A stretch of 37,292 nt of DNA from a virus. Under the pieces are notes generated by a model. That model made no database searches, was not told the DNA's origin, and saw only the letters and a list, made by a program, of their open reading frames with translations. Both the position numbers and the translations under genes were made by a program. The stretch covers positions 1-37,292 of the IMG/VR virus record IMGVR_UViG_3300036828_000671. One strand, given 5' to 3'. Shown here piece by piece: positions 3,246-33,527 of the stretch; positions within the stretch are counted from its first letter, which is position 1, and each line of letters begins with the position of its first letter.

Positions 3246-3483
3246 CAACGAACTAATGGGGTGGATATATGGCATCCTGCACCACGAACCTAACCGATCT
3301 GGCGATTTTCTCAGGCACCTGGCAGAAGCTGCGGTGCGTGCCGATGTCGAATCCTATTCAGCCCTGCGGCCGGCTTTGCTTATCATCTCCAATCGATTCC
3401 CGGAGTATGAATGTAAATGCTATGCATTTCGCCTATCGTCTGACGACGGGGCCAAAGACCTCCCAACCAAGTATTCCGACTAG
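3229..3483 (+). CDS. hypothetical small phage protein
   Basis: An 84-residue protein, last gene of the early plus-strand run. The recognisable part is MGWIYGILHHEPNRSGDFLR (from residue 10) followed by a helix-rich body. The ATG at 3229 overlaps the previous gene by 17 bp; the in-frame ATG at 3256 is an alternative start. The pattern looks like a conserved small phage protein of unknown function. Its last 51 bp overlap the 3' end of the convergent membrane-protein gene at 3433-3609. Confidence 0.6.
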   Translation: MILQNDNELMGWIYGILHHEPNRSGDFLRHLAEAAVRADVESYSALRPALLIISNRFPEYECKCYAFRLSSDDGAKDLPTKYSD

Positions 3484-3609
3484 GATCCAGAGAACTAAAT
3501 AGGCGCCTGCGCGGCGAACCCAAAGCGGCTGTGCGGGCTCATAGCTGACCCAGACGCCGAAGATCACGGCGATCACGTAAATGGTCCAAAACAGGATTCC
3601 CAACGGCAT
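3433..3609 (-). CDS. 58-residue membrane protein with two transmembrane helices
   Basis: A short gene read from an ATG at 3609 down to a TAG at 3435-3433. The product begins MPLGILFWTIYVIAVIFGV and ends FGPVVRR. Two hydrophobic helices (about residues 3-22 and 37-53) flank a short loop with WVRRAG. A very good ribosome binding site (AAGGAGAAG) lies 7-8 bp before the ATG, which strongly supports translation. It is the only minus-strand gene between the early and late blocks. It is probably a small inner-membrane protein; a holin-like or superinfection role would be a guess. It overlaps the convergent gene ending at 3483. Confidence 0.75.
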   Translation of the reverse strand: MPLGILFWTIYVIAVIFGVWVSYEPAQPLWVRRAGAYLVLWILVGILGWEVFGPVVRR

Positions 3610-3630: not shown

Positions 3631-3686
3631 CTTGAAGCAGGGTGCTTGAAGCAGGGTGCTTGAAGCAGGGTGCTTGAAGCAAGGTT
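3631..3686. repeat. four tandem 14-bp direct repeats
   Basis: The unit CTTGAAGCAGGGTG occurs exactly at 3631, 3645 and 3659 and in a diverged copy at 3673 (CTTGAAGCAAGGTT). The array sits upstream of the minus-strand membrane gene and of the whole late operon. It is not in a coding frame that I would accept. It may be a multi-site operator, a small iteron set or a slippage-prone element. Confidence 0.9.
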
Positions 3687-3772
3687 AAAGCAACTTTCGC
3701 TTTTCATTCTCTCCCGCAAGTAAACCTCTTGCACGAATGCAGGAAAGGGCAGAATCTTGTTCTCTATGCACT

Positions 3773-3802
3773 GTCGCCCCTTCTGGGGACGTGGATTGAA
3801 AC
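3773..3802 (+). other. solitary type I-C-like CRISPR repeat (no array, no cas genes)
   Basis: A single 30-nt element that starts GTCGCCCC and ends CGTGGATTGAAAC, as in type I-C CRISPR repeats (usually 32 nt). The arms pair as CG+CCCC with GGGG+CG around a TTCT loop, with a bulged A in the 3' arm (GGGGACG). The 3' end keeps the ATTGAAAC that forms the crRNA 5' handle. I found no second copy in the window, so there is no array. It lies in the non-coding gap before the late operon, 50 bp upstream of the next start codon. Lone repeats in phages are known as RNA anti-CRISPR candidates (Racrs). Transcription and activity are not shown by the sequence. Confidence 0.7.
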
Positions 3803-3851
3803 AAACGCTACCGGACATTTGCGGACCCGCCGCCAAAGGAGAACGAAGATT

Positions 3852-4448
3852 ATGCCCGCTCTTTGGGATCGACCGAATGGGCCTGTGAGCCCCGCGGCCA
3901 GCTCAGTAACTATGGCGCCTTTAAGTACACAGCTTGCGACACCCGCCGCGTTGCCGGCCACGCAATCCGTAACCGTGGCCACGGAAGTTATCATCCTCAA
4001 CCCATCGAACCCCGCCACCGCGCTCAATACGCCCCTCGGCCCCTTTACGGCGCTGGAGCAGACCATCTTCGACCTCGTTGCATCCGGCTTCATCACCACC
4101 CGAGCCGCAGGCACCATCGCGCTGGGGCTCTATGCGGGAGCGAGCGCAACCGTGGTAGCCGGCAACCTGCTGCATAAAACCGCCGCCCCAGTCACCCAGA
4201 ACACCACCACGGCGCCCTGGTGGATCCACGCCATGCTGATTTACGACTCAGTAAGCGGCAAGCTGCAGGGCAAATGCGGAGGCACGATCAACAACGTGAT
4301 CGACCCCGAGATTGCCAATACCAACGTGCCCACCGGTATAAGCAACGCGGCCAATCCCGTGGCCACCTTCTCGCTCAGCATCACTTCGAGCGGCGCCGCA
4401 CCTGGCACACCCACCACCATCAACGTTCAAAAATTTAACGCCGGCTGA
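3852..4448 (+). CDS. hypothetical protein at the head of the late operon
   Basis: A 198-residue protein. The frame is open from 3729, but the ATG at 3852 is preceded by AAAGGAGAAC at good spacing, so I use it; the upstream part would run through the CRISPR-like repeat. The product is Ala/Thr-rich with beta-type stretches (SVTVATEVIILNPSNPAT, ATFSLSITSSGAAPGTPT) and a central helical part (FTALEQTIFDLVASGFITTRAAGTIALG). This composition is usual for virion surface or decoration proteins. I do not recognise the family. It lies directly upstream of the terminase region. Confidence 0.65.
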   Translation: MPALWDRPNGPVSPAASSVTMAPLSTQLATPAALPATQSVTVATEVIILNPSNPATALNTPLGPFTALEQTIFDLVASGFITTRAAGTIALGLYAGASATVVAGNLLHKTAAPVTQNTTTAPWWIHAMLIYDSVSGKLQGKCGGTINNVIDPEIANTNVPTGISNAANPVATFSLSITSSGAAPGTPTTINVQKFNAG

Positions 4449-4802: not shown

Positions 4803-6494
4803 ATGCTTGACGTCGCTAGGCTGGCCGATGATGATGAATATCGTGCAGACGCACGTCATCGATTTATAACAGATCATTTTTTCGCGGCTCAAATCATCGG
4901 GTTTCACGATTTCAAAGAGCGCGCTCATCGTCCTGCGGTGAATCTATATTTCCCCAAGAATCCAAATCTATCGATCAGCCAGCAGCATAAAAAAAAGAAA
5001 CGAATCCATCTCGATCCGCGCCACAGCCTGAAAACTTCACTCAAACGTGTTGACCGGCTGCAATGGATCTGCGCTTTCCCCGAGGAAATTACTATCCTGA
5101 ACAATTCCGCAACTCAGCCCCTGGCCGAAGAAGTGGCGTTCAAAACCGCGCTGCAATTCTGGCGGCCGAAGGGCTCAGGGCTCCGCCCCATCCAGGTCAT
5201 GTATCCCGAATTGGTCATCGACAAAAGACCAACAGGATGCTGGAACACTCCCAACCGCAAACTCTGGGGCGCTGGTGATCTGGATTACACGCTCGATTTC
5301 ACTTCCCCGCAGAGCTCGCAGTCCGGCTGGCATCCGCTCATTATGGATTGCGACGACGTGGAGGATGCAAACAACAGCGGCATCACCGCCAGTCATGAAG
5401 TGCGCCAGAATGTGATCGATGTGTGCGACCAAAATGAAAATACGGTTCGCGAAGGCGGCTATATCTATATTGGAGGAACTAGATATTCACCCCTTGATTA
5501 CTATGGGAAATGCCTGCGATTGGCGGAAGAAAATCCCGACAATTGGGAAGTGCTTGTACGCAGCTCTGTGATCGTCAAGAGCGGCGCCCAATTGGTGCCG
5601 GGTGAATTCCCGCGCGAAGACGAACTGGAATTGCAGTTTCCTGAACTCGGAAATCTAAGCTATATCAGCTTGCGGGAAAAGTTCTATCAAAATTTTCTCA
5701 GCTTTATGGCCCAGCAACAGAACGACCCGCGAGGCGGCGCCGTGGCCCGCTTTGACGAGAAGCTGTATAAGAGCTGCCTGATTGCGCCCGAGCGGATCCC
5801 GCTGGGCGGCGACGTCTACATGTGCTGGCGCCCGCGGTACGGCGGCAAACCATCCATGGCCAAATATAGTGAAGGCGCCGTGGCCCGATTGTTCGACGGC
5901 AAAATCTATGTGCTCGACGCCTGGCAGGGAACCTACAGCCCCAGCGGGGAAGCGGAAAAGATTGTTCACCAGGCCAAAGTGCATCAGATCGATGCGCTGA
6001 TGATCGTATGCGTACCGGGGTCTGATTACGTGATGACGCATGTGCGCAACGAAGCCGCGCGGCGCAATCGCAGTTTCAGAATGCAGTGGACCGAATACGA
6101 GGAAGACGACGCGCGCCGCGCGGGATCCATCGAACAACTGGAACCATTGATGAAAGTGGGGCGCGTGTGGCTCTCCACCGCTATGTCGAAAGCCTCCGAA
6201 TGCCAGAACCAGTTTGTTCATTTCGGGCTCATGGAAGAGAATGGCATCATTGAAGCTATCTCCAAATTTGCGGATCTAGTTCCGCTCTCCCTGCTGCGCG
6301 CCAACATGAGCGAAGAAGAGATTGAATGGCAGCGCCGGCGCCGCGAAGACGCCTTAGTCACGGCGTTTCTCGATCAGCAGGGAATGCCGGCCGTCGACGA
6401 GCAGGCGCGACAGAAGGCAGAAGCACACTTGCAAGCTATGAGCGCAACGAGTTATTACGGGATCCCACCGCTGCCAGGAGGGTTAGACGGATGA
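4803..6494 (+). CDS. terL: terminase large subunit (TerL)
   Basis: A 563-residue protein. TerL pumps phage DNA into the prohead with an N-terminal ATPase and cuts it with a C-terminal RNase H-like nuclease. Walker A is a divergent PRHSLKTS at residues 72-79, as in the PRGHLKST class. Walker B is PLIMDCDDVED (178-188), and a coupling motif IGGTRYSPLDYYG follows (223-235). The nuclease domain starts near residue 335 with the usual YGGK and GKIYVLDAWQG strands, but the first catalytic Asp position seems to hold Trp (MCWRPRYGGK). The end runs into the next gene as ATGA. It is followed by the portal gene, the usual order. Confidence 0.88.
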   Translation: MLDVARLADDDEYRADARHRFITDHFFAAQIIGFHDFKERAHRPAVNLYFPKNPNLSISQQHKKKKRIHLDPRHSLKTSLKRVDRLQWICAFPEEITILNNSATQPLAEEVAFKTALQFWRPKGSGLRPIQVMYPELVIDKRPTGCWNTPNRKLWGAGDLDYTLDFTSPQSSQSGWHPLIMDCDDVEDANNSGITASHEVRQNVIDVCDQNENTVREGGYIYIGGTRYSPLDYYGKCLRLAEENPDNWEVLVRSSVIVKSGAQLVPGEFPREDELELQFPELGNLSYISLREKFYQNFLSFMAQQQNDPRGGAVARFDEKLYKSCLIAPERIPLGGDVYMCWRPRYGGKPSMAKYSEGAVARLFDGKIYVLDAWQGTYSPSGEAEKIVHQAKVHQIDALMIVCVPGSDYVMTHVRNEAARRNRSFRMQWTEYEEDDARRAGSIEQLEPLMKVGRVWLSTAMSKASECQNQFVHFGLMEENGIIEAISKFADLVPLSLLRANMSEEEIEWQRRRREDALVTAFLDQQGMPAVDEQARQKAEAHLQAMSATSYYGIPPLPGGLDG

Positions 6495-31979: not shown

Positions 31980-33527
31980 ATGGTAGGCAGACCGATACCG
32001 GCGCGGGCCAATCTGCGCGAACGGTTCGGCTTGACGTCTAGGCAGGCTTCGAAGGTGAAAGAATGCGCGGCCGGCCAGATAGCCAACTGCGGCGACGAAG
32101 CCGCCAGGCTGCTGCTGGGAAGAAGCGAGAAAGGGACAATCGAGATGACAAAGAATGACGTTTATGCGGATTTGAAACTTTACGAATTCGTGGCCGAAAA
32201 CTTCAAAAAGCTGCGCCTGTTCAGGGTCACGCCCCACGGGCCTGTTATGCAGATCACGGGACCGAACGGGGCAGGGAAGACGAGCGCGGTCGATGCCATC
32301 TGGTTTTTGCTCAAGGGCATCAAGGGGATGCCCGTGAAGGCGGTTCGCATCGGCGCCGAACAGATGCGCGTGAGCGGGCGCATTGGCAATGAGCATCTGG
32401 AATTCACCGTCACCCGCACCTTGGCGGCCGAAAGCCAGAATCCGAGCCTGGAAATCAAGATGATTAGAGGCAAGCGGGAGACGACACCGCAGGATTTTCT
32501 GGATCAGATTTTCGACATTCTGACGTTTGATCCGCTGGAATTCATTCGCATGGATCCCAAGGCACAGGTCGCCAAGCTGAGAGAAACCGCCCATGTGGAT
32601 TTGGACTTCGACGCCCTGGCCGAAGAACACGACAAGGATTACAAGGCGCGCGCCGCGGTGAATCTTGAGCGCAAGGCTCTGGCTGCGCGCATCGATGGTT
32701 TGCGGACACTGGAGGGCTTGCCTTTCGAAAAGCTGGACGAGGGCGCCATCCTGGTCAAGCTGAATGAAGCCGGCGAAGCCAACCGCAAGGCGCAGGAAGT
32801 CTTCAAGGCCAAGCAGGATCTGGGCACCAAGGTAGCCAGCGCACGCCAGGCCATTGCCGACAATGAACGGCTGATAACCAGCCAGACCGCTAAGGTGGAA
32901 GAACTGGAAGAACAGTTGAAGCAGGCGCGCCAGGTGCTGAAAGCCAGTCAAAACGTGCGCAAATCCCTAGCCACGGCCGCGGGCGAGGCGCAGGCGGCCT
33001 ACGAGGCGGCGCCGGCGGGCGATCCCATCGACGTAGGGGCTCTGACCGCGGAGCTGCAGAGCGCGCAGCGCACCAACCGCGAAATCGATGCTTGGCGGGC
33101 CAAGGAAGCACTGCGCAAGGAACTGGCCGCCAAAGACAAGGAATGGCAGACCTTCGACGACCGCATCAACAAGCGCGAGGAAAAGAAGCGCGCGGCCGTG
33201 GCCAAGGCCAAGATCCCCGTGGAAGGTTTGACCTTCAACGATTCGATGACCGAAGTACGCTTCAATGGTTTGCCGCTTGAAAACCTCGGGGAAGGCGAAC
33301 AGATCCGGCTCTCAGCCCGCATCGCCATGGCCGCCAATCCTAAGCTGCGCGTGCTCTGCATTCGCCACGGCGAAGCACTGGATGAAACCGGCATGAAGAT
33401 CCTCTATGACATGGCGGTAGACAACAACTTCCAGATCTGGATGGCCCGCGTCGACACATCCGGCCGCGTGGGAATCGTGCTCGAGGATGGCGAAGTTGTG
33501 GCCGAAAACGAAATGGTGGAGAAATGA
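31980..33527 (+). CDS. SMC/RecF-like AAA ATPase with N-terminal extra domain
   Basis: A 515-residue protein. Walker A GPNGAGKTS at 94-102, long coiled coil (about 250-340) and a second helical pair around 345-420, signature-like LGEGEQIRLSARIAM (436-450), and a Walker B region LRVLCIRHGEALDE (456-469). This is the RecF/RecN/SbcC class of DNA repair ATPases, often used by phages in recombination. No CxxC zinc hook is seen. Residues 1-55 (LRERFGLTSRQASKVK) look like a separate HTH-like piece. The ATG at 31980 has no ribosome site; the ATG at 32145 (residue 56), after AAAGGGACAATCGAG, would give the bare ATPase. Coupled to the next gene by ATGA. Confidence 0.75.
   Translation: MVGRPIPARANLRERFGLTSRQASKVKECAAGQIANCGDEAARLLLGRSEKGTIEMTKNDVYADLKLYEFVAENFKKLRLFRVTPHGPVMQITGPNGAGKTSAVDAIWFLLKGIKGMPVKAVRIGAEQMRVSGRIGNEHLEFTVTRTLAAESQNPSLEIKMIRGKRETTPQDFLDQIFDILTFDPLEFIRMDPKAQVAKLRETAHVDLDFDALAEEHDKDYKARAAVNLERKALAARIDGLRTLEGLPFEKLDEGAILVKLNEAGEANRKAQEVFKAKQDLGTKVASARQAIADNERLITSQTAKVEELEEQLKQARQVLKASQNVRKSLATAAGEAQAAYEAAPAGDPIDVGALTAELQSAQRTNREIDAWRAKEALRKELAAKDKEWQTFDDRINKREEKKRAAVAKAKIPVEGLTFNDSMTEVRFNGLPLENLGEGEQIRLSARIAMAANPKLRVLCIRHGEALDETGMKILYDMAVDNNFQIWMARVDTSGRVGIVLEDGEVVAENEMVEK

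Follow-up and report, generated by a model that had tools for sequence, protein, structure and literature searches.

A solitary type I-C-like CRISPR repeat recently inserted into a phage late-operon leader is a plausible RNA anti-CRISPR candidate

The window analyzed here, a 37,292-nt viral contig stretch, harbors a 44-nt insertion that was gained recently in this phage lineage and is absent from two close relatives (L002 and L025). The insertion, TGCACT-repeat-AAACGCTA, carries a solitary type I-C-like CRISPR repeat, is flanked by CTA direct repeats at both ends and occupies positions 3767–3810 (equivalently 3764–3807) of the + strand. We regard the element as a plausible new candidate for the RNA anti-CRISPRs (Racr), with a predicted decoy function. 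The more surprising result is the PAM-linked anatomy of the class of viral solitary repeats, which points to CRISPR targets as places where such repeats may arise.

The repeat and its setting

The 30-mer GTCGCCCCTTCTGGGGACGTGGATTGAAAC was located on the + strand at positions 3773–3802, exactly where the earlier note had placed a type I-C-like repeat. It displays the anatomy of type I-C repeats, with a GTCG... start, an CGTGGATTGAAAC end and a central hairpin; the latter folds as CGCCCC-UUCU-GGGG(A)CG, in agreement with the inserted, bulged A (A17) and shortened loop described before. Arrays of nearly the same repeat are found in many bacteria. Allowing up to three mismatches, the element is the sole match in the window, and with none of 100 shuffled controls yielding a match, a chance match was rejected. 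No second copy, full or partial, was found in the window, so that the repeat is solitary by the 100-bp criterion for solitary repeat units (SRUs), and no cas gene was matched among the window ORFs scanned (part of all ORFs of a possibly incomplete contig), in line with the initial reading.

The repeat is intergenic, as SRUs are, and its non-coding nature follows from a conserved downstream gene start and the flanking genes. It lies in the gap between a minus-strand small membrane ORF (3433–3609), already listed as a neighbor, and a plus-strand gene whose start is fixed by conservation at ATG 3852 (MPALWDRP), 50 nt 3′ of the repeat. A ribosome-binding site, AAAGGAG (3835–3841, +), is recognized from sequence and conservation. 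This first late gene (3852–4448, +) belongs to the structural operon and encodes a conserved protein of 198 aa with no assigned function; next come an ORF of 110 aa and the genes for the large terminase (phrog_38) and a major head protein. Because terminase and major head genes lie downstream, the gap is a late-operon leader, as proposed earlier, with the repeat in sense orientation and a promoter-like block directly upstream. The first 8 kb gave no DNA match to the closest annotated phages, and the terminase is only 25% identical to those of ICP2-like vibriophages.

The other neighbor described previously, a set of tandem 14-nt repeats at 3631–3685 (no strand assigned), contains the palindrome TGCTT-G-AAGCA, which occurs once more at 1423–1436. 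Similar motifs are present in L002, L025 and L003, and these tandem repeats are probably operators of a phage regulator.

An empty site in close relatives

The relatives L002 (IMG/VR 3300036779_000092) and L025 (IMG/VR 3300036785_000578) share the leader and the downstream genes with the window, their first late gene products being 87% and 85% identical to that of the window, respectively. L002 is about 87% identical at the DNA level, with collinear flanks on both sides. Both relatives read TTGTTCTCTA|C(C/T)GGACATT, i.e. TTGTTCTCTAC(C/T)GGACATT, at the position where the window has TTGTTCTCTA-TGCACT-repeat-AAACGCTA-CCGGACATT. Given this empty site in two close relatives, we conclude that the window gained 44 nt. 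Across 14 relatives, including more distant ones, none harbors an I-C-like repeat at this leader site.

Comparison of filled and empty sites reveals TTC|TCTATGCACT-repeat-AAAC|GCTACCGG in the window vs TTC|TCTACCGG in the relatives. The TTC triplet (3760–3762, +), identical to the type I-C PAM (PMC7913775), lies 10 nt 5′ of the repeat and precedes the insertion point in the relatives as well. Within the left segment TCTATGCACT (3763–3772, +), the first 4 nt are empty-site bases and the last 6 nt are new, whereas AAAC (3803–3806, +) is a tandem duplication of the last 4 nt of the repeat. The first reading had noticed neither the insertion nor its TTC site nor the doubled AAAC at the repeat end.

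The 14 relatives without the repeat, two of them close and with a clean empty site, contradict the possibility raised at the outset that the element is the last relic of a full array. Viral mini-CRISPR arrays exist (Medvedeva et al. 2019, as cited in PMC11656645) and likewise place a host-type repeat in a virus, and two viral contigs of our own set (L056 and L174) proved to contain such mini-arrays. The window differs from them in having neither a second repeat nor a spacer between repeats. With no partial second repeat, a clean empty site in relatives and both flanks collinear with them, it is extremely unlikely that the element is the final repeat left over from a decayed phage mini-array, or an artifact of assembly.

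Relation to bacterial CRISPR repeats

The exact 30-mer had no match in one-per-species bacterial and archaeal contigs (85k species genomes), and the window repeat itself was accordingly not seen in an array beside I-C cas genes in these contigs. A looser pattern retrieved 21 stretches from the same species contigs, mostly arrays of GTCGCCCCTTCACGGGGGCGTGGATTGAAAC, in Desulfobulbus (Desulfobacterota), Niveispirillum and Ruegeria (Alphaproteobacteria), Verrucomicrobia and others. This type I-C repeat and the window repeat share their 5′ 11 nt and 3′ 13 nt and an equally placed hairpin; they differ by three edits in 31 positions, and the window copy is single and in a phage. The best match in a plasmid collection reached 87.1% and 36 bits. 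Rfam returned no match for the window element, a null result that is uninformative because canonical I-C arrays themselves score only 23–25 bits. Among 674 distinct array spacers, none matched the insertion site, and no meaningful match to the phage was found either.

The GGGAC variant is rare, being detected in 1/398 and 0/388 genomes of the two phyla searched, and the single match, L284, is itself a solitary repeat. It lies on a bacterial chromosome (L284:1500–1532, - strand; G143), where this I-C-like repeat of the GGGGAC variant occupies the leader of a sucC-like gene.

Repeats of this kind may also be dispersed over a chromosome. In the Burkholderiaceae MAG G001 (JAIEMS010000011; L013, L148–L156), about ten intergenic elements of ~90 nt end in an I-C-like repeat (CCAAAGTCGCCCCTTCAGGGGCGTGGATTGAAACAT); this genome also holds two genuine arrays, and one dispersed element sits between proS and a nudix gene. 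The window insertion could be a copy of such a dispersed family, and its short 3-nt duplication would fit this; in the G001 elements, however, the repeat is preceded by a longer stretch that is conserved among them and missing in the window, where the insert comprises only 44 nt, making this origin very unlikely.

Transcription and RNA fold of the leader

A promoter-like block, TTGCAC-N17-GAATCT (3729–3757, +), is a weak sigma-70 match conserved in relatives, with a spacing that is recognizable in L002, L025 and L026 and looser in L003. As a consensus sigma-70 scan of the leader called no site, we infer its promoter role from this conservation. The insertion begins about 7 nt past the last base of the block, at the expected transcript start, and the repeat, which has crRNA orientation, would accordingly lie where the late mRNA begins if the predicted promoter is active.

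The hairpin of the window repeat has a folding energy of -9.1 kcal/mol vs -13.0 kcal/mol for GTCGCCCCTTCACGGGGGCGTGGATTGAAAC. In the context of the leader RNA, only 5–15% of the ensemble contains the lower stem at the base of the hairpin. A competing extended hairpin, CAC-GUC-CCC/GGG-GAC-GUG (-10 to -11 kcal/mol), adds CAC/GUG and GUC/GAC pairs and draws on the inserted TGCACT. The Racr reading of the earlier note, in which the repeat RNA captures Cas proteins, thus stands in part: the candidate matches a published class (PMC10651486, main text), with about 100 comparable viral cases, but its predicted decoy function is less certain than had been stated, because the bulged A, together with TGCACT next to the repeat, favors the alternative fold.

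A new 5′ hairpin could also act as a regulatory leader that stabilizes the late mRNA, or as a Cas5c cleavage site by which Cas proteins of the host tune late expression. The location at the expected mRNA start and the extended hairpin are in line with such a role, and bacterial gene leaders, e.g. that of the sucC-like gene in L284, hold solitary I-C-like repeats too. The leader fold is nevertheless no better than that of shuffled sequences (z about -1) and 14 relatives manage without the element, and we therefore consider a regulatory leader unlikely.

Solitary I-C-like repeats in viral contigs are linked to TTC

A scan of IMG/VR identified at least 119 stretches with I-C-like repeats, most of them single. 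The viral solitary set was made non-redundant by flank; some cases may still share ancestry, and the P values given for the class are therefore only indicative. In 80 non-redundant solitary cases among the matches listed, T occupies position -36 in 41, with TTC or TTT at -37 to -35. An independent set of 28 repeats, obtained with a further pattern and from repeats ending in AAAT, yielded the same preference: TTC is found 34–35 nt upstream in 6 cases vs 0.9 expected (P=4e-4), and TTC/TTT/CTC/CTT combined are enriched at this distance with P=1e-4. After a stricter filter that dropped six not strictly solitary entries, 102 strictly solitary I-C-like repeats remained among the matches listed. When all 64 triplets were ranked at 94 offsets, TTT (27 vs 6.9 expected) and TTC (19 vs 4.1 expected) at 34–35 nt upstream came first. 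The type I-C PAM is TTC and I-C spacers measure 32–37 nt (PMC7913775), so that this distance equals one spacer length.

Flanking duplications follow the same triplet. Duplications with the left copy directly after TTC occur in 10 of the 102 cases vs 0.13 expected upon swapping of right flanks, 500 swaps giving 2 at most, and TTC ranks first among the 64 triplets. The layouts read TTC|GATAGCGGGCAGCGAGGCA|repeat|GATAGCGGGCAGCGAGGCC in L102, TTC|34 nt|repeat|G|same 34 nt in L055 and TTC|GAGATAGGAA|repeat|AAAC|GAGATAGG in L057; L261, L266, L278 and L249 provide further examples. A tandem copy of the last four bases of the repeat (AAAC or AAAT) is present in 14/108 viral solitary repeats, compared with 0.85 expected.

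Other sources of the pattern were considered for the class as a whole. Array remnants were rejected, as the repeat end AAC is rare 34–35 nt upstream (2 cases). A promoter is not favored as the source of TTC/TTT at -37 to -35, the position profile lacking an accompanying -10 box, and a simple transposon was rejected in view of duplication lengths that range from 3 to 34 nt and of the tie between these duplications and TTC. The enrichment of TTC/TTT one spacer length upstream, together with the TTC-linked duplications, suggests that many phage solitary repeats are repeats recombined into a targeted protospacer. We found no description of this anatomy in the openly searchable literature, and the main text of PMC10651486 makes no mention of flanking duplications.

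Several individual contigs illustrate the range of these structures. Perfect direct duplications of 33 and 34 nt surround a solitary I-C repeat in L144 (4825–4923) and L055 (reverse complement, 5690–5790), respectively, the register being shifted by one base from that of the TTT/TTC before the left copy. In L111 (11587–11619), the flanks are synonymous versions of one gene end (NHDEGILSPR); the left copy keeps the gene and the first G of the repeat completes its stop codon TAG. A type I-F solitary repeat in L239 (233–260) is enclosed by a direct duplication of ~22 nt (GCCGGAGCGTATCCGGCACAAG), with CC-rich sequence preceding the left copy. The type I-F PAM is CC; truly solitary type I-F repeats were too few for a PAM test.

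The window fits the PAM-protospacer pattern only modestly, judged by its sequence. Its TTC stands 10 nt before the repeat, followed by four bases common to the empty site, and the duplicated CTA is in the same register if AAAC is left out. As the duplication spans only 3–4 nt (duplication-test score 2), a PAM-linked origin of the window element rests on TTC, CTA and AAAC taken together. The layout of L057, which also carries GGGGACGTGG, is that of the window.

A proposed origin at a CRISPR target

We propose that phage solitary I-C repeats, including that of the window, arise at CRISPR targets and leave the arrangement PAM-X-repeat-X, a proposal to which we give about an even chance. Recombination of the phage with an I-C array of its host, at the targeted protospacer, would have given a phage–array cointegrate joined at spacer X, which repeat–repeat recombination would then resolve into PAM-X-repeat-X; alternatively, aberrant spacer integration may have caught the phage, which left by repeat–repeat recombination. 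The window would retain the anatomy of the class, that is a PAM, a partial protospacer copy, the repeat, the AAAC duplication and the continuing protospacer, and a host spacer would be expected to match TTC-TCTACCGGACATTTGCGG. Speculatively, left copies later shorten or diverge and AAAC shifts the register, because an in-register repeat-X transcript would direct Cas proteins at PAM-X in the phage itself.

Recombination between spacers and phage protospacers at CRISPR loci has been described (Varble et al. 2019, as cited in PMC8616872). Its predicted product, phage DNA linked to an array at a protospacer, matches PAM-X-repeat-X; that system moves large array or host segments, whereas the window phage keeps one repeat.

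An insertion of this kind would separate the protospacer from its PAM, and the repeat end GAAAC would precede the protospacer as in a "self" array. The repeat may then be passive debris of recombination with the array, an escape scar without RNA function in which selection favored only the break in the late-leader protospacer. The TTC directly 5′ of the empty-site sequence in relatives and the PAM link across the viral class agree with this, as do the departure of the window repeat from array repeats and the disfavored lower stem in the RNA context. Point mutations, however, would be a cheaper escape, both repeat ends are intact, and among the 102 viral solitary repeats 26 precede a same-strand gene start vs 8 that follow an opposite-strand one. 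We hold a mere scar to be possible, if somewhat doubtful.

The best overall explanation is a recombined-in solitary I-C repeat that acts as a Racr-type decoy, a reading in which our belief and our doubt are about equal. With the repeat at the predicted late-mRNA start in crRNA orientation, the phage would be expected to make much repeat RNA late in infection. This RNA would bind Cas5c as in Racrs, may be cut by it, and would seed Cas7 on non-guide RNA.

If this is true, a targeted phage gains, through the targeting, a protospacer that passes as "self", with GAAAC rather than TTC before it, as well as a ready-made RNA anti-CRISPR, and the RNA inhibitors of CRISPR immunity in phages would stem from that immunity itself. 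Solitary repeats would then mark past targets, which would make host assignment as well as Racr origin directly testable. Racrs are a recently recognized class, and the before-and-after comparison available here, two empty relatives and one filled site at a TTC, bears on their source.

Comparison with known Racrs

SRUs in phages can act as Racrs, as reported in the main text of PMC10651486, where the mechanism was tested for type I-F, via Cas protein binding, and an I-C example, RacrIC1, was tested too. According to the same source, RacrIC1 resides in an acr operon and is co-transcribed with a gene. For SRUFinder, a known repeat must be matched across at least 90% of its length with no less than 90% identity and a bit score of 41.1 or more (PMC10651486), a score that the window repeat would probably not reach. 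Further criteria given there are a solitary position within 100 bp, an intergenic location without cas genes, expression and a promoter at most 250 bp upstream, a host with CRISPR-Cas of the matching subtype, and interference inhibited through Cas binding.

The window element resembles this class (PMC10651486, main text) in being one intergenic I-C-like repeat with no cas gene found among the ORFs scanned and promoter-like sequence upstream, in an orientation that would allow Cas binding, and it would share a transcript with a gene as RacrIC1 does. It differs in its altered repeat (30 nt, bulge, UUCU loop) and in its predicted place where a structural-gene mRNA begins, without a known acr beside it, and its insertion at TTC and AAAC duplication have no counterpart in that main text. 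Elsewhere in the window, positions 31980–33527 encode a 515-aa phrog_1499 protein (function unassigned) with AAA/SbcC-like ATPase similarity and weak matches to defense ATPases.
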